Source: a virus. Taken from it: a DNA stretch of 20,463 nt. This document shows, in pieces, positions 2,633-17,220 of the stretch. The DNA is taken from IMG/VR virus record IMGVR_UViG_3300018416_000150, positions 1 to 20,463 of that record, one strand, 5' to 3'. A model generated the notes under the pieces. That model was not told where the DNA came from and ran no database searches. It saw nothing but the letters and a program-made list of their open reading frames with translations. The position numbers were made by a program, and so were the translations under genes. The first letter of the stretch is position 1, and each line of letters starts with the position of its first letter.

Positions 2633-3031
2633 ATGAGTAAAGTCGATCAAAAATTAGACGAACTTCTTGACATACAAGGAGAAATAGTACAAGTAGAAAA
2701 AAATCTACCTACGATATCATCTAATTCGCAAGATAAAGGTACTGATTACAAATATTCTAGAGAGATATTCTACAACCTTGTAGAAAGAGGTCAAGACGCT
2801 ATTGAAGGTATTTTAGATATAGCTAAAGAATCTGAACACCCTAGAGTATACGAAGTAGCAGGTCAACTGATCAAAACAGTAGGAGAAACAACAGAGAAAT
2901 TGATTGACTTACAAGCAAAGATGAAACAATTAGACAAAGATGATAATGTACCTGATAAAGTACAAAATAATCTATTTGTAGGTTCATCAGCTGAGTTACA
3001 AAAGTTGTTAAAACAAAATGCACAAGAATGA
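2633..3031 (+). CDS. gp16: Small terminase subunit gp16
   Basis: Position directly before the large terminase, size (132 residues; T4 gp16 is 164) and sequence fit the T4-like small terminase. This subunit assembles as a ring that recognises DNA and stimulates the gp17 ATPase at the start of packaging. Visible parts are a short N-terminal segment (VDQKLDELLDIQGE), a helical coiled-coil centre (EIFYNLVERGQDAIEGILDI, EHPRVYEVAGQLI and ETTEKLIDLQAKMKQL), and a C-terminal NNLFVGSSAELQKLL motif resembling the T4 segment ATVFMGSPTEL. The start has no Shine-Dalgarno sequence and sits just behind a late promoter. It overlaps gene 17 by 14 bases. Confidence 0.88.
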   Translation: MSKVDQKLDELLDIQGEIVQVEKNLPTISSNSQDKGTDYKYSREIFYNLVERGQDAIEGILDIAKESEHPRVYEVAGQLIKTVGETTEKLIDLQAKMKQLDKDDNVPDKVQNNLFVGSSAELQKLLKQNAQE

Positions 3032-4607
3032 AGGTTATCTAGGTAATATTAATGTCAAAAGAGCTGGCGTTCAGTCTCAATGGACAGAAGAAGAAATCTT
3101 AGAATACAAAAAGTGTATGGAAAATCCCATATACTTTATAGAGAATTATATCAAAATCATTTCACTAGATGAAGGTTTAGTACCTTTCAAATTATACGGA
3201 TATCAAGATGAGCTCATTACACACTTTGATGAGAATCGTTTTAGTATTGTATTAGCTTGTAGACAGTCAGGTAAATCAATAACAGCTTGTGCTTATCTAG
3301 TTTGGTATCTACTATTTCAACCAGAACAGACTATTGCTATCTTAGCAAACAAAGGTTCTACTGCTAGAGAAATGTTAGCTAGAATCACAACTATGTTAGA
3401 GCATGTACCTTTCTTTTTACAACCAGGTACTAAAGTTCTGAACAAAGGTTCGATTGAATTTGAAAATGATAGTAGAATCATAGCTTCAGCTACAGGTGCT
3501 AATTCTATTCGTGGTATGTCAGTTAATCTTCTATACTTAGATGAGTTTGCTTTCGTGGATAACGCTGAACAGTTTTATACATCAACATATCCTGTTGTTA
3601 CATCAGGTGGTAAATCAAAAGTTATCATTACATCTACAGCAAATGGTATAGGAAATATGTATCATAAACTTTATGAAGGTGCTGAACACGGTCAAAACGA
3701 ATATCAACCATTTACAGTTAATTGGTGGGATGTACCTGGTAGAGATGAGAAATGGAAAGAGTCTACAATAGCAAATACTTCTGAATTACAATTTGAACAA
3801 GAGTTCGGTAATTCATTCTTAGGTACAGGTAACACTTTGATCAATGCAAATACACTATTAGGATTACAAGGTAAAGATGCTTTGTGGTCAAGAGACAATG
3901 TTCATCTCTATCAAGAACCTAAACAAGATCATACTTATATCATGACAGTTGATGTAGCAAAAGGTAGAGGTCGAGATTATTCTACCTTTTCAATAATAGA
4001 TGTAACAGAAAAACCTTTCAAACAAGTTGGTATCTTTAGAGACAATATGATATCACCATTATTATACGCTGACATATTAGAAAAGTATGGTAAAATGTAT
4101 AATGAAGCACTGATTGTTATAGAAAATAACGATTCAGGACAAATTGTATGTAATAATTTGTACTATGACATAGAATATCCAAATGTATTTTTAGAATCTA
4201 CAGTCAAAGCATCTGGTGTAGGTGTAACTATGACTAGAAAAGTAAAACAAATTGGTTGTTCAACTCTTAAAGAGTTAATGGAAGAAAAAAAATTAATGGT
4301 TATAGACAAGTTTACTATAAGTGAATTAGTAACTTTTGTAGCAAAAGGACAGTCATACGAAGCTGATGGTGGTAATCATGATGATTTAGTTATGAATTTA
4401 GTGTTATTTTCATGGTTTGTAACGACACCTTACTTTCAAAGTTTAACAGATTTAGAACTAAAGAAAATGTTGTATGATGAACAACAACAAATGATTGAAG
4501 ATGATATGGTACCTTTTGGTATCATAGATGATGGACAACCTACAGAACAAACATACAAAGAGGGTGGAGATGTTTGGACTGTAGTGGATAATGTAAAAGT
4601 TTACTAA
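3018..4607 (+). CDS. gp17: Large terminase subunit gp17 (packaging ATPase and nuclease)
   Basis: The DNA-packaging motor and headful nuclease, docked on the portal during packaging. The N-terminal ATPase has Walker A ACRQSGKS (residues 80-87), Walker B LLYLDE with catalytic Glu (171-176) and the coupling motif TSTANG (205-210). The C-terminal RNase H-like nuclease shows VDVAKGRGRDYS (Asp 312), VIENND (Glu 369) and NHDDLVM (Asp 455/456), matching the three acidic metal-binding positions of T4 gp17. Length 529 is shorter than T4 (610), mostly at the ends. The ATG at 3018 lies inside gene 16 and has no clear ribosome site, which suggests translational coupling; the next in-frame Met (residue 34) would lose conserved sequence. 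Confidence 0.97.
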   Translation: MHKNEGYLGNINVKRAGVQSQWTEEEILEYKKCMENPIYFIENYIKIISLDEGLVPFKLYGYQDELITHFDENRFSIVLACRQSGKSITACAYLVWYLLFQPEQTIAILANKGSTAREMLARITTMLEHVPFFLQPGTKVLNKGSIEFENDSRIIASATGANSIRGMSVNLLYLDEFAFVDNAEQFYTSTYPVVTSGGKSKVIITSTANGIGNMYHKLYEGAEHGQNEYQPFTVNWWDVPGRDEKWKESTIANTSELQFEQEFGNSFLGTGNTLINANTLLGLQGKDALWSRDNVHLYQEPKQDHTYIMTVDVAKGRGRDYSTFSIIDVTEKPFKQVGIFRDNMISPLLYADILEKYGKMYNEALIVIENNDSGQIVCNNLYYDIEYPNVFLESTVKASGVGVTMTRKVKQIGCSTLKELMEEKKLMVIDKFTISELVTFVAKGQSYEADGGNHDDLVMNLVLFSWFVTTPYFQSLTDLELKKMLYDEQQQMIEDDMVPFGIIDDGQPTEQTYKEGGDVWTVVDNVKVY

Positions 4608-4609
4608 AT

Positions 4610-4617
4610 TATAAATA
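4610..4617 (+). promoter_or_regulatory. T4-type late promoter P1 upstream of gene 18
   Basis: Perfect TATAAATA followed by CT, starting three bases after the gene 17 stop. By T4 spacing the start would be near 4623, the first base pairs of the inverted repeat at 4622-4647. It is the upstream member of a pair of late promoters 42 bases apart in the same direction. Confidence 0.75.
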
Positions 4618-4621
4618 CTAG

Positions 4622-4647
4622 TTAATAAAGAGGAAACTCTTTGTTAA
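4622..4647 (+). repeat. Inverted repeat, 11-bp stem with GAAA loop, in gene 18 leader
   Basis: The arms 4622-4632 and 4637-4647 pair over 11 bp with a single G-T wobble and enclose a GAAA tetraloop (GNRA type, unusually stable). There is no T run after it, so it is not a normal intrinsic terminator. Its 5' arm begins at the predicted start of the P1 transcript, so it would be a 5'-terminal stem-loop of that RNA; such structures protect mRNA from 5'-end-dependent decay. The role is inference. Confidence 0.7.
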
Positions 4648-4651
4648 ACTT

Positions 4652-4659
4652 TATAAATA
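4652..4659 (+). promoter_or_regulatory. T4-type late promoter P2 upstream of gene 18
   Basis: A second perfect TATAAATA in the same gap. The predicted start is near 4665, inside the left edge of the 22-bp palindrome at 4663-4684 and about 37 bases before the gene 18 ATG. Tandem late promoters fit the high demand for sheath and tube protein. Confidence 0.75.
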
Positions 4660-4662
4660 ACG

Positions 4663-4684
4663 AATTTTATTTCGAAATAAAATT
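4663..4684 (+). repeat. Perfect 22-bp AT-rich palindrome and adjoining ribosome site of gene 18
   Basis: AATTTTATTTC and its exact complement meet with no spacer at 4673/4674. In RNA this could fold as a hairpin with a small loop placed immediately 5' of the strong TTAGGAG ribosome site at 4686-4692 (9 bases from the ATG). It could keep the ribosome site open, stabilise the RNA 5' end, or bind a dimeric protein as DNA. Only the symmetry is directly seen. Confidence 0.75.
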
Positions 4685-4701
4685 ATTAGGAGAAAACAAA
4701 C

Positions 4702-6714
4702 ATGGCATTTCAAGTTTCGCCTGGTGTACAGGTTCAAGAAATAGATGCTACTAATGTTATTCCTGCGGTCTCAAGTTCTACAGGAGCATATTGTGGTTAC
4801 TTTGGTTGGGGTCCAGCCGAAGAGGTTACTACAGTTACTTCTCAAAAAGGACTTGTTGACATATTCGGGGAGCCCGCTTCTACTAATATCGCTGCTGAGC
4901 ATTTTTACCCAGCTGCTTTATTCTTAGATTACGGGATTGACTTAAAAGTAGTTCGTATCGCGACTACCAATATGGTAAACGCGACAACAACAAGTGGACA
5001 GTCTTTGTTAATCAAAAACTTAACCCACTATAGAAATAATTACAACACTGGTTCTGCCGCTGTTGGTAATTATGGAGCAAGATGTGCTGGAGATTTAGGT
5101 AATTCACTTAAAATCCAGGTATGTGGTGGTGCTGACGCGTTTGCTGAAGCTGATGTTACAACAACTAATGGAACTTCTGCTTTAGACGGTACTTCAATCG
5201 AAGTTACTGCAGGGGAGAAATTCATAGTAGGTGACATTATAACAGCAATTGGTTCTGATACTACTAGATACAAAATATCAGCTATCGCTTTTGACTCAGG
5301 TTCTACCGGAGCCGCAACAGTTACAATTGCACAAGAAGATGATTCTACTCAAGGATTAACAGCCGCTGTTTCTAGTAGTGCTAATATATCTAGAGAGTGG
5401 GAATTTGCAAATCAATTCAACAAAGCACCTGGTACTTCTACTTACGCAAGTAGTAGAGCTAGTGCTGGTTCGAATGATGAAATGCATATCATAGTTCTTG
5501 ACGAAGACGGAGATTTCACTGGAACTCCAAACTCAGTTTTAGAAAGATTTGAAGCAGTATCAAAAGCTTCAGATGCTAAAGATGACTTCGGTGCAACTAA
5601 CTACTATGTTACTGTTATTGAAAACCAAAGTGAATATGTCTTCTGGTTGGATCATAGTTCTACTATGACATCAGCTGGTTCAGCCGCTGCAGGAGTCACA
5701 TTCGGTACAGGTACTTTACCAGATAATCTTTCATTTACCGATGGTTCAGATGGAAGACAACCTACAACTGGTCAAAAAATAACAGCTTGGGATACACACT
5801 TTGGTAGTGCAGATAATGAAGATATATCTTTACTTATCTCAGGATCTAATCAAGCAGATAACGGGAGTGGTAGTGTAGTTGAAACGAGAGCCGAAGCAAC
5901 AAGCTATTACAACCAATTAATGAATATCGCAGAAGACAGAAAAGATTGTGTCGTATTCTTTTCACCAATCAAATCAGATTGTGTTGACGCTGGAACATCA
6001 GCAGCAACAAATGTGAAGACTACTGCAGATACTCTAAACTCATCTAGTTACGCTTCAATGAGCAGTAACTGGTTATATATTTACGACAGGTACAATGACA
6101 GATATGCATGGGTACCAGACAACGGAGCAGTAGCAGGTCTATGTGCTAGAGCTGACTATACGAATGATGCATGGTTCTCACCAGCAGGATTCAACCGTGG
6201 TCAAATATTTGGTGTAACTAAATTAGCGTTTAACCCAACACAAGCTGATAGAGATACTCTATACAAAGCTAGGGTTAATCCTGTAGTTACATTCCCTGGA
6301 CAAGGAACATTATTATATGGAGATAAAACATTACTAAGCAATGCTGGTAGTGCGTTCTCAAGAATTAATGTTCGTAGATTGTTTATTGTGTTAGAGAAAG
6401 CGATTGCAACATCAGCTAAGTTCCAACTATTTGAATTTAACGATTCATTTACAAGAGCTAATTTCAGAGCAGCTGTTGAACCTTTCTTGCGTCAAGTACA
6501 AGGTAGACGAGGTATCTATGATTACCAAGTCATTTGTGACGAGACAAACAACACACCGGCAGTTATTGACTCATCTCAGTTTGTAGCTTCAATTTTTGTG
6601 AAGCCAGCTAGAAGTATCAATTTCATAACATTAACCTTTGTAGCATCTAGATCAGGTGTAGATTTCGAAGAACTCTACGGTCAACTCACAGGTGCAGCAG
6701 AATCATCAGTATAA
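4702..6714 (+). CDS. gp18: Tail sheath protein gp18
   Basis: Contractile tail sheath subunit, which polymerises around the gp19 tube and contracts at infection. The N-terminus (FQVSPGVQVQEID, then STGAYCGYFGWGPAEE and DIFGEP) and the C-terminal domain (FPGQGTLLYGDKTL, INVRRLFIVLEKAI, FVASIFVKPARSINFITLTF) are the typical core of T4-like sheaths; this C-terminal part makes the handshake contacts between subunits. The middle (about residues 130-330) is Ser/Thr/Ala/Gly rich and corresponds to the variable, surface-exposed domains. Its 670 residues compare with 659 in T4. It has a strong ribosome site (TTAGGAG) and two late promoters with structured leaders, and is followed 13 bases later by the tube gene. 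Confidence 0.96.
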   Translation: MAFQVSPGVQVQEIDATNVIPAVSSSTGAYCGYFGWGPAEEVTTVTSQKGLVDIFGEPASTNIAAEHFYPAALFLDYGIDLKVVRIATTNMVNATTTSGQSLLIKNLTHYRNNYNTGSAAVGNYGARCAGDLGNSLKIQVCGGADAFAEADVTTTNGTSALDGTSIEVTAGEKFIVGDIITAIGSDTTRYKISAIAFDSGSTGAATVTIAQEDDSTQGLTAAVSSSANISREWEFANQFNKAPGTSTYASSRASAGSNDEMHIIVLDEDGDFTGTPNSVLERFEAVSKASDAKDDFGATNYYVTVIENQSEYVFWLDHSSTMTSAGSAAAGVTFGTGTLPDNLSFTDGSDGRQPTTGQKITAWDTHFGSADNEDISLLISGSNQADNGSGSVVETRAEATSYYNQLMNIAEDRKDCVVFFSPIKSDCVDAGTSAATNVKTTADTLNSSSYASMSSNWLYIYDRYNDRYAWVPDNGAVAGLCARADYTNDAWFSPAGFNRGQIFGVTKLAFNPTQADRDTLYKARVNPVVTFPGQGTLLYGDKTLLSNAGSAFSRINVRRLFIVLEKAIATSAKFQLFEFNDSFTRANFRAAVEPFLRQVQGRRGIYDYQVICDETNNTPAVIDSSQFVASIFVKPARSINFITLTFVASRSGVDFEELYGQLTGAAESSV

Positions 6715-7244: not shown

Positions 7245-7252
7245 TATAAATA
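7245..7252 (+). promoter_or_regulatory. T4-type late promoter upstream of gene 20
   Basis: Perfect TATAAATA. T4 spacing places the start at 7258, exactly the A of the gene 20 ATG. The nearest purine-rich stretch (GAAGGG, 7238-7243) is 14 bases upstream of the ATG and would not be in this transcript. Confidence 0.75.
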
Positions 7253-7257
7253 TTAGT

Positions 7258-8781
7258 ATGGAATTATTTGGATTAGAAATAAAGAGGAAACAGGGTGACG
7301 AAACTAAAGCACAAAGTTTCGTCCCACCTCAAAATGATGGGTCTGTTATCGAAATCGGTAAAGACCATGGTATGGGTGGTTTCGCTGCCACCGGTGGAGT
7401 CATTGGTCAATATGTTGACATGGAAGGCGGAGTCAAGAACGAAGCTGACCTTGTTACAAGATATAGAACAATGTCTCTGGTACCTGAATGTGATGCAGCG
7501 ATTGAAGATATAGTTAACGAAGCTATATCATCAAACGATTTAGATGCTCCGGTATCTATTAACTTAGATAGAGTTACTCATTTTAGTGATTCTACTAAAG
7601 AAAAAATTCGTAAAGAGTTTGATGAAGTTTTATCTTTATTAGGTTTTAGAGAACTCTCACACGACATATTTAGAAAATGGTATGTTGATGGTAGACTCTA
7701 TTATCATAAGATGGTAGATTCTAAGAACACTAAAGTAGGTGTTCAAGGATTAAGACCTATTGATCCTCAAAAGATTCGTAAGATTCGTGAGGTTGATAAG
7801 AAAAAAGATCCTAAAACAGGAGTTGAAGTTGTTAAGAAAATAGATGAATATTATCTTTTCAATGAACAAGGGTTTGATAAGAGTGGTAATAACACAGGTC
7901 AAACAGTAAGAATTAGTCCTGATGCTGTGACTCACATAACATCTGGACTACTTGATTACAACCAAAAAGTAGTAGTTGGTTATTTACATAAGGCTATGAA
8001 GTCTGTAAACCAACTAAGAATGTTAGAAGATGCTCTAGTTATTTACAGAATATCAAGAGCACCAGAGAGAAGAATCTTCTACATTGATGTAGGTAACTTA
8101 CCTAAAGCGAGAGCTGAACAGTACTTAAAAGAAGTACAAACAAGTTATCGTAATAAGTTAGTGTATAACGCTGACACAGGTGAGATAAAAGATGACAGAA
8201 AGCATATGAATATGCTTGAAGACTTCTGGTTACCTAGACGAGAGGGAGGTCGAGGAACCGAGATTAGTACACTACCAGGTGGACAAAATCTTGGTGAGAT
8301 TGAAGATATTTTATATTTTCAAAAGAAATTGTACAAGTCTCTTAATGTACCAATTTCTAGATTAGAGACAGAAACTGCGTTCGCTATTGGTAGAGCGACA
8401 GAGATTTCTAGAGATGAAGTTAAGTTTTCTAGATTTATAGACAGACTTAGAATTAAATTCTCTAGATTATTTGATGATATTCTAAAAACTCAACTGTTAT
8501 TAAAGAATATTGTGACAGAAGATGATTGGAAGAAATCAAAAGAGTATGTAAGTTATGACTTTCAGAAAGATGGTCATTTCGTAGAACTAAAAGAAGCAGA
8601 GATATTGAGAGAACGAGTCAATACTCTAGAACAGTTAGATCAGTTCGTTGGTAAGTACTACTCAGAAGATTGGATAAGAAAGAATGTTCTTAGACAATCA
8701 GAAGCAGAAATTGCTCAGATGTCAAAAGAAATGGAAACATCTGGTGGTGGTGATGAAGACGAAGATGATTTAGATTTTTAA
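7258..8781 (+). CDS. gp20: Portal vertex protein gp20
   Basis: Dodecameric portal at the special head vertex: it starts prohead assembly, is the DNA channel and docks the terminase and neck. Landmarks are RYRTMSLVPECDAAIEDIVN (about residues 68-87), FRKWYVDGRLYYHKM, GLRPIDPQKIRKIREV, the RISRAPERRIFYIDVGNLPK segment, and the highly conserved stretch from GRGTEISTLPGGQNLGEIED to YKSLNVPISRLE (about 332-375). At 507 residues it is close to T4 (524). It ends in a very acidic tail (GGGDEDEDDLDF). No usable ribosome site lies near the start, which coincides with the predicted late transcript start. The prohead core gene follows after 14 bases. Confidence 0.97.
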   Translation: MELFGLEIKRKQGDETKAQSFVPPQNDGSVIEIGKDHGMGGFAATGGVIGQYVDMEGGVKNEADLVTRYRTMSLVPECDAAIEDIVNEAISSNDLDAPVSINLDRVTHFSDSTKEKIRKEFDEVLSLLGFRELSHDIFRKWYVDGRLYYHKMVDSKNTKVGVQGLRPIDPQKIRKIREVDKKKDPKTGVEVVKKIDEYYLFNEQGFDKSGNNTGQTVRISPDAVTHITSGLLDYNQKVVVGYLHKAMKSVNQLRMLEDALVIYRISRAPERRIFYIDVGNLPKARAEQYLKEVQTSYRNKLVYNADTGEIKDDRKHMNMLEDFWLPRREGGRGTEISTLPGGQNLGEIEDILYFQKKLYKSLNVPISRLETETAFAIGRATEISRDEVKFSRFIDRLRIKFSRLFDDILKTQLLLKNIVTEDDWKKSKEYVSYDFQKDGHFVELKEAEILRERVNTLEQLDQFVGKYYSEDWIRKNVLRQSEAEIAQMSKEMETSGGGDEDEDDLDF

Positions 8782-10177: not shown

Positions 10178-10185
10178 TATAAATA
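10178..10185 (+). promoter_or_regulatory. T4-type late promoter upstream of gene 22
   Basis: Perfect TATAAATA two bases after the gene 21 stop. The predicted start near 10191 gives a leader of about 49 bases containing an AT-rich palindrome and the AGGGAG ribosome site at 10225-10230. It probably also drives gene 23, which has no TATAAATA of its own in the 3' part of gene 22 or the 25-base gap. Confidence 0.75.
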
Positions 10186-10198
10186 ATACTTAATAATC

Positions 10199-10214
10199 AA
10201 TTTATTAATAAATT
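10199..10214 (+). repeat. 16-bp palindrome in gene 22 leader
   Basis: AATTTATTAATAAATT is perfectly self-complementary and begins about 8 bases after the predicted late transcript start. It echoes the palindrome in the gene 18 leader in being AT-only or nearly so, close to the RNA 5' end, and ahead of a strong ribosome site. Confidence 0.6.
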
Positions 10215-10239
10215 TATTTGAAATAGGGAGCATATTCTA

Positions 10240-11643
10240 ATGTCTAATTTAGAAAGCACAATAGAAGAAGTAATGTCTGAAGCAGTAGAGCCGAAGGCAA
10301 AAGCATCTTCTGAAAAACCCGATCCTGATATCGAGAAAAAAGCTTCAGATGCAGCTGGTAAGGCTGGAGACGCTACTAAGAAAGCTAAAGCACCTGGTGG
10401 TGAAAAAGCTTCTGAAAAAAGCGACGAAGTTAAAGATGGTGCAACAAAAGTAGAAAAAGGAAAAGCCGTTAACCAAGAAGAAGTAGAGTCAGAAGACGAA
10501 GCTATTTCTGAAATGGGTAAAATGGAAGGTTCTAAGTCTGAAATGTTGAAAGCCATGGTCTCCAAAATGAAGGAAATGGGGATGAAAGAACTAAAAGCAG
10601 CCTGGAAAAAAATGGAAATGGCTGACATGGAAGACGAGGATGGCGAAAAAGACGAACAAGTCGAGTCACTAAGTCGTAATGCCTTAATTAGAGGTATTGT
10701 AGAAGGTCTTAAAGATAAGTCAACTGAAGAAGTTGCATCATTTATCGAAAGTTTTGATAAAGTAGAAGAAGAAGTTGAAGAAACTGAAGATTCAGTTGAA
10801 GAAGCTAAAAAGTCTACAAAAGAAATGGACGATATGGATGACGAAGACGAAGAAGAAGAAGAAGATGAAGAAGTCAAGAAAGAGTCATACGACATTGACA
10901 TGACAGACGACATTGAAGCTCTTGTTTCAGATGAAGATTTATCCGAAGGTTTCAAAGATAAAGCTAAAACAATTTTCGAAGCAGCAGTTGCATCTAAAGT
11001 TAAAGAGCAACTAGTAGAGAAAGAAGCTGAGTTAGAAGAAGAACTTAACAAGAAAGTTGAAGAAGTCAAAGAAGACTTAACTGAAAAAGTTGATTCTTAT
11101 CTAAACTATGTTTCTGAATCTTGGGTTTCAGAAAATGAATTAGCTATCGAGCGAGGATTAAAATCCGAGCTAACAGAAGATTTCATCAATGGTTTGAAAA
11201 AACTATTTGAAGAACATTATGTGGAAGTTCCAGAAGACAAGTTTGATGTAGTTGAAGAACTAGCAAACAGACTTGATGAGATGGAAGACAAGTTGAACGA
11301 AGAAGTTGCTGGCAACATTCAAGCTCAACAAGACATCGAGGAACTAAAGCGTGAAAAAATTATCAGCGAAGCATCTGTTGATCTAGCTGATACTCAGGTG
11401 GAGAAGTTAAAAGCTTTAGCTGAAGAAGTCGATTTCGAAAATGAAGAAAATTTCGTTGAGAAAGTTTCTACATTGAAAGAATCATACTTCGGAAGTGAAA
11501 AACTTGAAGCTGTCTCTGACGATGCAACTGTGGCAAGTGACGATGCTGACTTCTCAGGTGCGGGCGATGTAGCTCAACCTGTTACAGAAGGCATGGAAAG
11601 ATATACTGCCGCATTAACTAAATTCGCTAACTTAGATAAGTAA
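10240..11643 (+). CDS. gp22: Prohead scaffold (core) protein gp22
   Basis: Major internal scaffold around which gp23 assembles; it is later cut into small peptides by gp21. The C-terminal half is T4 gp22-like: a long helical/coiled-coil run from about residue 236, VDSYLNYVSESWVSENELAI (284-303), then LFEEHYVEVPEDKFDVVEEL (322-341). It is much longer than T4 gp22 (467 versus 269). The extra N-terminal part includes a Lys/Ala/Glu/Ser-rich low-complexity stretch (about 17-76), a Met-rich helical segment (about 92-130, at least ten Met) and a solid acidic block (EDEEEEEDEE, about 202-211). Many (L/I)xE sites are present (for example LSE 234-236 and ISE 376-378). Strong AGGGAG ribosome site, nine bases before ATG. 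Confidence 0.93.
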   Translation: MSNLESTIEEVMSEAVEPKAKASSEKPDPDIEKKASDAAGKAGDATKKAKAPGGEKASEKSDEVKDGATKVEKGKAVNQEEVESEDEAISEMGKMEGSKSEMLKAMVSKMKEMGMKELKAAWKKMEMADMEDEDGEKDEQVESLSRNALIRGIVEGLKDKSTEEVASFIESFDKVEEEVEETEDSVEEAKKSTKEMDDMDDEDEEEEEDEEVKKESYDIDMTDDIEALVSDEDLSEGFKDKAKTIFEAAVASKVKEQLVEKEAELEEELNKKVEEVKEDLTEKVDSYLNYVSESWVSENELAIERGLKSELTEDFINGLKKLFEEHYVEVPEDKFDVVEELANRLDEMEDKLNEEVAGNIQAQQDIEELKREKIISEASVDLADTQVEKLKALAEEVDFENEENFVEKVSTLKESYFGSEKLEAVSDDATVASDDADFSGAGDVAQPVTEGMERYTAALTKFANLDK

Positions 11644-13102: not shown

Positions 13103-13110
13103 TATAAATA
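13103..13110 (+). promoter_or_regulatory. T4-type late promoter upstream of the 92-residue gene
   Basis: Perfect TATAAATA, 20 bases after the gene 23 terminator. The predicted start is 13116, the G of the GTG that opens the next gene. It restarts late transcription for the unknown gene and gp3. Confidence 0.72.
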
Positions 13111-13115
13111 TAGTT

Positions 13116-13394
13116 GTGAAAGAAAAAAATATCTCCGATATTATCAATGGTCGTTGGAACTGGTATGGTCTTGGAGAAGAACCCGAGGAAGAAATGATAC
13201 AATTTGATGAAATGATACATACATATCAACTTGATAATAGAAAAGCAGAAGTTGGTGTTTTAAAAGAAACGGGTACATTCGGTATAAGAATGTGGGAGAA
13301 TAATGTTCACCAAAAAGATGAACTGTTTGAAGGACATAGTGAAACATATGCTGAGAATGCTGCAGAAAACTATGTATTTGGGATAAAGAACTAA
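13116..13394 (+). CDS. Unknown 92-residue late protein
   Basis: I do not recognise this family. The product is acidic, tryptophan- and glutamate-rich (INGRWNWYGLGEEPEEEM near the start, FGIRMWENNVH in the middle) and has no signal peptide, membrane segment or metal-binding cluster. The reading frame has no ATG before residue 27, so GTG at 13116 is the likely start, and this coincides with the predicted start of a late transcript; no Shine-Dalgarno sequence is seen. It ends one base before the gp3 start, so the pair is probably co-translated, which suggests a structural or assembly role late in infection. The frame is uninterrupted and codon use resembles its neighbours, so it is probably a real gene. 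Confidence 0.65.
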   Translation: MKEKNISDIINGRWNWYGLGEEPEEEMIQFDEMIHTYQLDNRKAEVGVLKETGTFGIRMWENNVHQKDELFEGHSETYAENAAENYVFGIKN

Positions 13395-16695: not shown

Positions 16696-17220
16696 ATGAC
16701 TAGACAAAAAAGACAAACCAAAGAATCAGTTCATTATGTAAACAATAAAGAGTTTACTGCAGCAATTATCGAACATAATCATGCTTGTAGAAAAGCTGAA
16801 AAAGATGGTGTAGAAAAACCTAGAGTATCAGAATACATTGGTGAATGTATATACAAGATCGCTACTAGATTATCTACTAAACCTAATTTTATCAATTATT
16901 CGTATCGTGATGAAATGATATGTGATGGTATCGAAAATTGTCTACAATACATTGAAAACTTTAACGAAGAAAAATCACAAAATGCATTTGCCTATGTAAC
17001 TCAAATTATATACTTTGCGTTTTTGAGAAGAATACATAAAGAAAAGAAACAAGCAGCGATAAAACAAAGAAGTATTGAACAAGCAGGTGTTTTGTTTGAT
17101 ACTTTAGATACCATGGACGGTGACACGAAAGGTATGACTAACTCTTTTGTAGATTATTTACAAGAGAATATGAATCCTATAAATTATAAACCTCGTGGTT
17201 CAAAGAAAAAAGACACTTAA
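16696..17220 (+). CDS. gp55: Late-transcription sigma factor gp55
   Basis: Small sigma that directs host RNA polymerase to TATAAATA promoters, coupled to replication through the sliding clamp. Length 174 (T4 185). The region 2-like core matches T4: YVNNKEFTAAIIE (14-26), RDEMICDGIENCLQYIENFN (71-90), then NAFAYVTQIIYFAFLRRIHKEK (96-117). SFVDYLQENM (150-159) resembles the hydrophobic-acidic clamp-binding end of T4 gp55 (LDFLYE), but here it is followed by a 15-residue tail with many Lys/Arg (ending PRGSKKKDT). It is transcribed from a sigma70-like promoter, apparently without a leader or Shine-Dalgarno sequence. Gene 47 starts six bases after the stop. Confidence 0.93.
   Translation: MTRQKRQTKESVHYVNNKEFTAAIIEHNHACRKAEKDGVEKPRVSEYIGECIYKIATRLSTKPNFINYSYRDEMICDGIENCLQYIENFNEEKSQNAFAYVTQIIYFAFLRRIHKEKKQAAIKQRSIEQAGVLFDTLDTMDGDTKGMTNSFVDYLQENMNPINYKPRGSKKKDT

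Follow-up and report, generated by a model that had tools for sequence, protein, structure and literature searches.

Comparison of related phage sequences gives good support to a conserved two-hairpin leader RNA before gene 18, the tail sheath gene, in a virus contig of 20,463 bases (the window, taken over its full length). The RNA structure of this leader appears to be under selection, its sequences having changed while the pairing was kept. On balance, the element is probably the sheath mRNA leader of a marine T4-type myophage, in which a first hairpin (H1) protects the 5' end and a second (H2) insulates the ribosome site, a reading held with moderate confidence. Promoters alone are the usual explanation of late gene expression in T4-type phages. 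A leader that is supported by covariation and stands before a major virion gene offers a defined RNA element to test, as well as a way of marking late operons in phages that are uncultured, and it illustrates that leader structure can persist as pairing while sequence drifts. No description of a conserved two-hairpin gp18 leader was found in the parts of the literature searched, which lay mostly outside subscription journals.

The late promoter of gene 18 and its leaders

Genes in the window are arranged as in a T4-type myophage, running from small and large terminase through tail sheath (gp18), tube, portal, scaffold and major capsid protein to a gp55-type late sigma factor (16696-17220; phrog_234, 1.4e-58), the tube gene being named from its position alone. 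Gene 18 (4702..6714, + strand) was assigned to the tail sheath protein through phrog_23 (tail sheath, 1.4e-116) and through tblastn to annotated sheath genes; among sheath proteins with an annotation, the closest come from the Pelagibacter phages Mosig (50.0%) and HTVC008M (48.5%) and the Methylophilales phages Melnitz (46.7%). Upstream, gene 17, encoding the terminase large subunit (3018..4607, + strand; phrog_5989 and phrog_2), ends 2 bases before the late promoter P1, an exact match to TATAAATA followed by CTAG (4610..4617, + strand). A second exact copy of TATAAATA (4652..4659, + strand) is a possible promoter P2. Since TATAAATA occupies -13 to -6 at T4 late promoters, according to the available part of the source (PMC1524935), the predicted starts are 4623 for P1 and 4665 for P2. 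The first-pass annotation had described both copies of the motif, both predicted starts, a GAAA-loop hairpin and a 22-nt palindrome, and all of these were found as it stated.

The T4 late promoter system (TATAAATA, gp55-gp33-gp45) has its counterpart in the window in the exact motif, its use before late genes, its placing before gene 18 and an encoded gp55 homologue. All six exact copies of TATAAATA in the window lie on the coding strand, each shortly 5' of a gene start; their number is not significant (6 against 2.84 expected, with 8 of 100 shuffles reaching 6). The phages of this group resemble those that infect very abundant ocean bacteria, for which a genome survey reported, in the available part of its text, that late-promoter prediction failed (PMC7029224).

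Two sets of leaders were compared. Similarity to the gp18 protein gave 80 loci, of which 16 are 80-96% identical in their best segment; 13 of these 16 extend far enough upstream, while L012, L015 and L016 fall short of P1. In all 13, which were chosen by protein similarity, TATAAATACTAG stands at the P1 position upstream of gp18. Scanning viral contigs for the P1 motif returned 51 stretches, some of them contigs already collected, and together with the window these provide 24 distinct gp18 leaders; L102 was left out because its stretch stops before a recognisable start codon. The 24-leader set is conditioned on P1 and hence uninformative on P1 itself, and stem-forming sequence played no part in its selection. 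Transcription would begin at about 4623 at the conserved P1, as the T4 rule predicts and the conserved spacing supports, giving the window a gene 18 leader of 79 nt. Despite their differing sequences, all 24 leaders measure 76-81 nt, and all carry the Shine-Dalgarno (SD) sequence AGGAG, which in the window lies at 4688..4692 (+ strand).

Pairing in the two hairpins and in other lineages

Hairpin H1 (4622..4647, + strand) consists of arms at 4622-4632 and 4637-4647 around a GAAA loop and contains 11 pairs, one of them T-G, ten of which are present in a transcript starting at 4623. In each of the 24 leaders, its base is separated from the predicted +1 by 0-4 unpaired nt (stem start +1 to +5) and 7-8 of 8 counted pairs are formed, so that the first stem stands at the predicted 5' end throughout, as originally proposed. 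Pairs were counted on loop-anchored arms, the MAFFT alignment of window-clade leaders having misplaced the H1 arms. The arms themselves vary widely (AATAAAGAG/CTCTTTGTT, GATGAG/CTCATT, GAATAAGAGG/CTTCTTATTC and GAATGATT/AATCATTC), and neither loop nor stem sequences are conserved in the window's clade. Among 12 distinct hairpins, both sides have changed at 6 of 8 pairs. One pair changes stepwise, being A-U in L005, G-U in L112 and G-C in L002, a series that fits selection for the pair. Within the first 32 nt, a hairpin equally stable and equally near the 5' end occurs in <5% of dinucleotide shuffles for every one of the 24 leaders.

Hairpin H2 (4663..4684, + strand), the perfect 22-nt palindrome AATTTTATTTCGAAATAAAATT, lies just 5' of the SD sequence. 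It is likewise present in 24/24 leaders, with 8-9 of 9 counted pairs, and its last counted pair falls 15-19 nt before the AUG. The cores TTTCGAAA (TTCGAA) and TATAGCTATA are unrelated, and pairing is kept in both. A palindrome as long as that of the window appeared in 0/300 shuffles. When arms were swapped between leaders, permutations equalling the native pairing numbered 0/20000 for H1 and 0/20000 for H2, in tests that ignore the relatedness of the leaders; the pair register was fitted leader by leader, a procedure that favours pairing, and the swap controls received the same optimisation. Stem covariation in homologous leaders, which the first-pass annotation had named as a check, is therefore positive for both stems. 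The H2 arms fall into few sequence classes and so represent few independent events, and H2 alone beats shuffles (p<0.05) in just 13 of the 24 leaders, the worst value being 0.55. It is almost wholly A-U, and it is absent from the minimum-energy fold of three leaders (L007, L117 and L124; 3/24).

Over the whole leader, the fold z-score averages -2.54, with 17/24 leaders below -2 and 21/24 below -1. A leader identical to that of the window (L003) reaches -3.69, and the weakest values are -0.48 (L107), -0.81 (L001) and -0.99 (L013). The leader of L104 combines the H1 of L008 with the H2 found in L106 and L005, as if leader halves recombine.

Beyond the window's clade, the predicted leader of Pelagibacter phage HTVC008M follows the same two-hairpin plan at 48.5% gp18 identity: TATAAATA and five bases are followed by GAGATTA-ACAA-TAATCTC exactly from +1, an 18-nt palindrome and AGGAG (z -3.2). 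The T4 gene 18 leader is 23 nt long and unstructured and lacks this plan. A palindrome no better than shuffles (p above 0.05) was obtained for 21 of 71 distinct gp18 leaders, among them those of Melnitz-2 (L083), L017-L020, L047, T4 (L084), P-HM1, Cr30, DLP_6, phiM19 and Syn1. L005, from the window's own clade, is also among them, its perfect palindrome being interrupted by a G-U pair. In six isolates outside the pelagiphage group, T4 included, the palindrome is within chance. Searches of Rfam with the window, L081, L082, L083, L025 and L078 gave 0 matches at the gathering score.

A clade of about 50% gp18 identity (38 distinct leaders) has a different hairpin, starting at +19 to +28 and bounded by conserved flanks. 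This hairpin, seen in phage Mosig among others (L081:9900-10003 and 37 related leaders), takes the form of UAUGG followed by GUAU-GAAUA-AUAC or GUAAG-AAAA-CUUAC. The UAUGG precedes the stem in 38/38 leaders, the six stem pairs are 98.0% paired, and 3 of the 6 have changed on both sides; a short palindrome before the SD sequence is 92.4% paired. Its position off the 5' end means that end protection cannot be the common function there. A small ORF was considered for the UAUGGGCGUAUGA motif of this clade and judged by eye; the frames differ among relatives while the stem is kept, and RNA structure is the better reading. Three leaders of the clade (L032, L067 and L071, arms read by eye) keep the H2 arms and lose the palindromic centre.

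One version of the gp18-leader palindrome, TTAGCTAA, is built around AGCT beside the Shine-Dalgarno sequence. On the + strand of 90 sequences, 47 of its 59 sites precede gp18; of the other 12, two lie before an ATG inside other genes and 10 before none, all seem to be within genes, and none is followed by a plausible gene start. The possibility that TTAGCTAA is a general ribosome-site palindrome was ruled out by this gp18-specificity.

Proposed function and competing readings

The base of a stabilising stem is expected at most about 4 nt from the 5' end of its mRNA. H1 has its base within that distance of the predicted 5' end, and its pairing is conserved in homologues. In E. coli, appended 5' hairpins impede RppH and stabilise mRNA, according to the available part of the report (PMC3997798). 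By analogy, H1 would most likely leave the host's decay machinery (first RppH, next 5'-end-dependent RNase E) without a free 5' end, a step that presumes a host like E. coli, the host itself being inferred from relatives. The resemblance is to 5'-terminal stabilising stem-loops of the ompA/papA type, which likewise place a hairpin a few nt from the 5' end of an abundant protein's mRNA; here, however, the mRNA is a predicted phage late transcript, AU-rich, with a second hairpin at the ribosome site. mRNA stabilisation by the leader stems may be proposed by comparison with such systems.

At the upstream border of the site where ribosomes land, the second hairpin would tie up the U-rich leader, leaving the Shine-Dalgarno region single-stranded, and would also leave little AU-rich single strand for direct RNase E entry. 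The earlier suggestion that the leader keeps the ribosome site open draws some weak support from the predicted folds, in which the unpaired probability from SD to AUG is 0.557 in native leaders against 0.484 in shuffled ones, a small gain that is seen in 21 of 24 leaders. Together, H1 and H2 would raise the yield of the sheath and of the adjacently encoded tube protein.

RNA structures at ribosome sites are known from T4, where those of genes e, soc, 49 and I-TevI are inhibitory and those of genes 25 and 38 enhancing, the gene 25 stem-loop being conserved in T-even phages (PMC3014915, available part). They share with H2 a place near T4-type ribosome sites. According to that review, in which "gene 18" has 0 occurrences, the inhibitory structures sequester the SD or AUG and the enhancing ones lie between SD and AUG; H2, however, is upstream of the SD, which is free. 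In the window, AGGAG is unpaired in the predicted fold, as opposed to the sequestered type of gene e, and H2 ends at 4684, the SD starts at 4688 and no helix lies between SD and AUG, as opposed to the split type of genes 25 and 38.

The main rival to this protective leader is a translational operator, in which a phage protein (gp18, RegA or some other) would bind H1 or H2, or one of these hairpins would switch structure, thereby tuning sheath synthesis. Operators of this kind exist at T4 genes 32 and 43 (PMC3014915, in the part available). The argument is stronger for the clade of about 50% identity, whose hairpin, with its invariant UAUGG, conserved flanks and covarying stem pairs, resembles a binding site, and the concentration of TTAGCTAA before gp18 points the same way. 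Across the window's clade, H1 keeps neither its loop nor its stem sequence, unlike a protein operator, and the predicted folds do not sequester the SD. An operator is regarded as rather unlikely.

Slightly less probable still is the arrangement from which the first-pass annotation started, namely two late promoters in tandem, whose mRNAs would each start at the left edge of a separate stem-loop. H1 does begin at the 4623 start; the 4665 start, however, is the third base of the H2 palindrome and thus lies inside its arm, where initiation would cost H2 two pairs. In all five leaders with a second TATAAATA, the predicted start coincides with the outer few nt of H2 or falls just before it, which favours a tandem design. 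Such a copy is nevertheless found in only 5 of 24 distinct leaders, so that tandem promoters are not a constant arrangement; elsewhere the site resembles TTAATAATA, and both hairpins are still conserved. The second TATAAATA is optional and, on these comparisons, is an addition in some lineages.

A role of H2, and perhaps H1, as DNA was also weighed, whether as a site for a dimeric protein, as a signal for packaging or recombination in the interval from gene 17 to gene 18, or as a cruciform. The terminase genes adjoin H2, and in most relatives the palindrome of H2 runs unbroken through the centre, something a hairpin loop would not need. The core sequences differ, however (TCGA, AGCT, TGCA, ATAT), and H2 keeps within a narrow range of distances from the start codon. 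G-U pairs in 4 of the 24 leaders of the window's clade break DNA symmetry while RNA pairing is kept, and L032, L067 and L071 lose the centre only; these two observations favour RNA over DNA as the selected form, and a DNA role is considered improbable.

Two further readings were given very little weight. The stems could serve the upstream gene 17 transcript as a terminator, processing site or 3' stabiliser, for H1 lies about 15 nt after the gene 17 stop codon. A search for rho-independent terminators (G+C-rich stem and T run) at 4400-5000 gave 0 terminator-like sites, though, neither stem is followed by a long U run, and in 24/24 leaders H1 keeps its place at the promoter start point. In the T4-type phages RB49 and phi1, mobile cassettes combine early promoters with stem-loops that are terminators; the pairing of promoter and stem-loop is similar here, but the stems are transcribed parts of the leader of one late gene. 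Finally, template switching, a mechanism described for T4, can turn near-palindromes perfect, and perfect palindromes in AT-rich DNA might be mutational by-products formed without selection, a very improbable account given how little leader length and the distance to the start codon vary across many sequence versions, the gp18-specificity of TTAGCTAA, and the gene 22 leaders of the same phages, which have no such stable structure.

Gene 22 had been put forward as a similar case in the initial reading. Its palindrome AATTTATTAATAAATT is indeed present at 10199-10214; the leaders, however, have no stable or conserved fold. The folds of ten distinct gene 22 leaders resemble those of shuffles (mean z +0.31, with one leader below -1 and 0/10 below -2), and gene 22 was rejected as a second example. 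Several gene 22 promoters of relatives have TATAAATACTAGTTAA in common with the gene 18 promoter, with unstructured leaders (window 10178-10240 and relatives).

Possible leaderless late mRNAs

Among marine sequences, an ATG stands 5-6 nt downstream of TATAAATA at 46 of 277 sites, with 0 at 0-4 nt and two at 7-12 nt; the count takes, for ORFs of at least 50 codons, the first ATG, after removal of repeats of the 40 bases that follow the motif. The same spacing follows GATAAATA (16/58) and CATAAATA (12/48), hardly AATAAATA (4/62), and control octamers have 0-5 such sites each. The T4 late promoters differ: in a 50-kb stretch, ATG is never closer than 14 nt at any of 19 TATAAATA sites. The sharp spacing between motif and ATG gives independent support for a +1 at 6-7 nt after the motif, and would imply leaderless late mRNAs. 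In the window, start codons follow TATAAATA by 5-6 nt at the promoters in 2619-2633, 7245-7258 and 13103-13116, and many related loci share this placing. Genes with this spacing include those for the portal and small terminase; HTVC008M adds those for a baseplate wedge subunit and the DNA end protector.

Leaderless phage mRNA is a known kind, phage mRNAs being called often leaderless in the available part of a paper on phage AR9 (PMC5312081); leaderless mRNA at T4-type late promoters was not found in the parts of the literature searched, mostly outside subscription journals. It may tentatively be suggested, as a possibility viewed with some doubt, that in marine T4-type phages with streamlined hosts a single class of late promoter serves two contrasting 5'-end designs: a leaderless form, with the start codon as first base, for low-copy virion and packaging proteins, and a conserved two-hairpin leader, protecting the end and isolating a strong ribosome site, for the abundant sheath and tube pair. 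If this is true, protein stoichiometry would be set in part by the architecture of the 5' end and not by promoter sequence. A different arrangement is seen just 5' of gp18 in Prochlorococcus phage Syn1 (L089), where a 7-bp inverted repeat (GTCCAAA/TTTGGAC) flanks the late-promoter-like AATAAATA.
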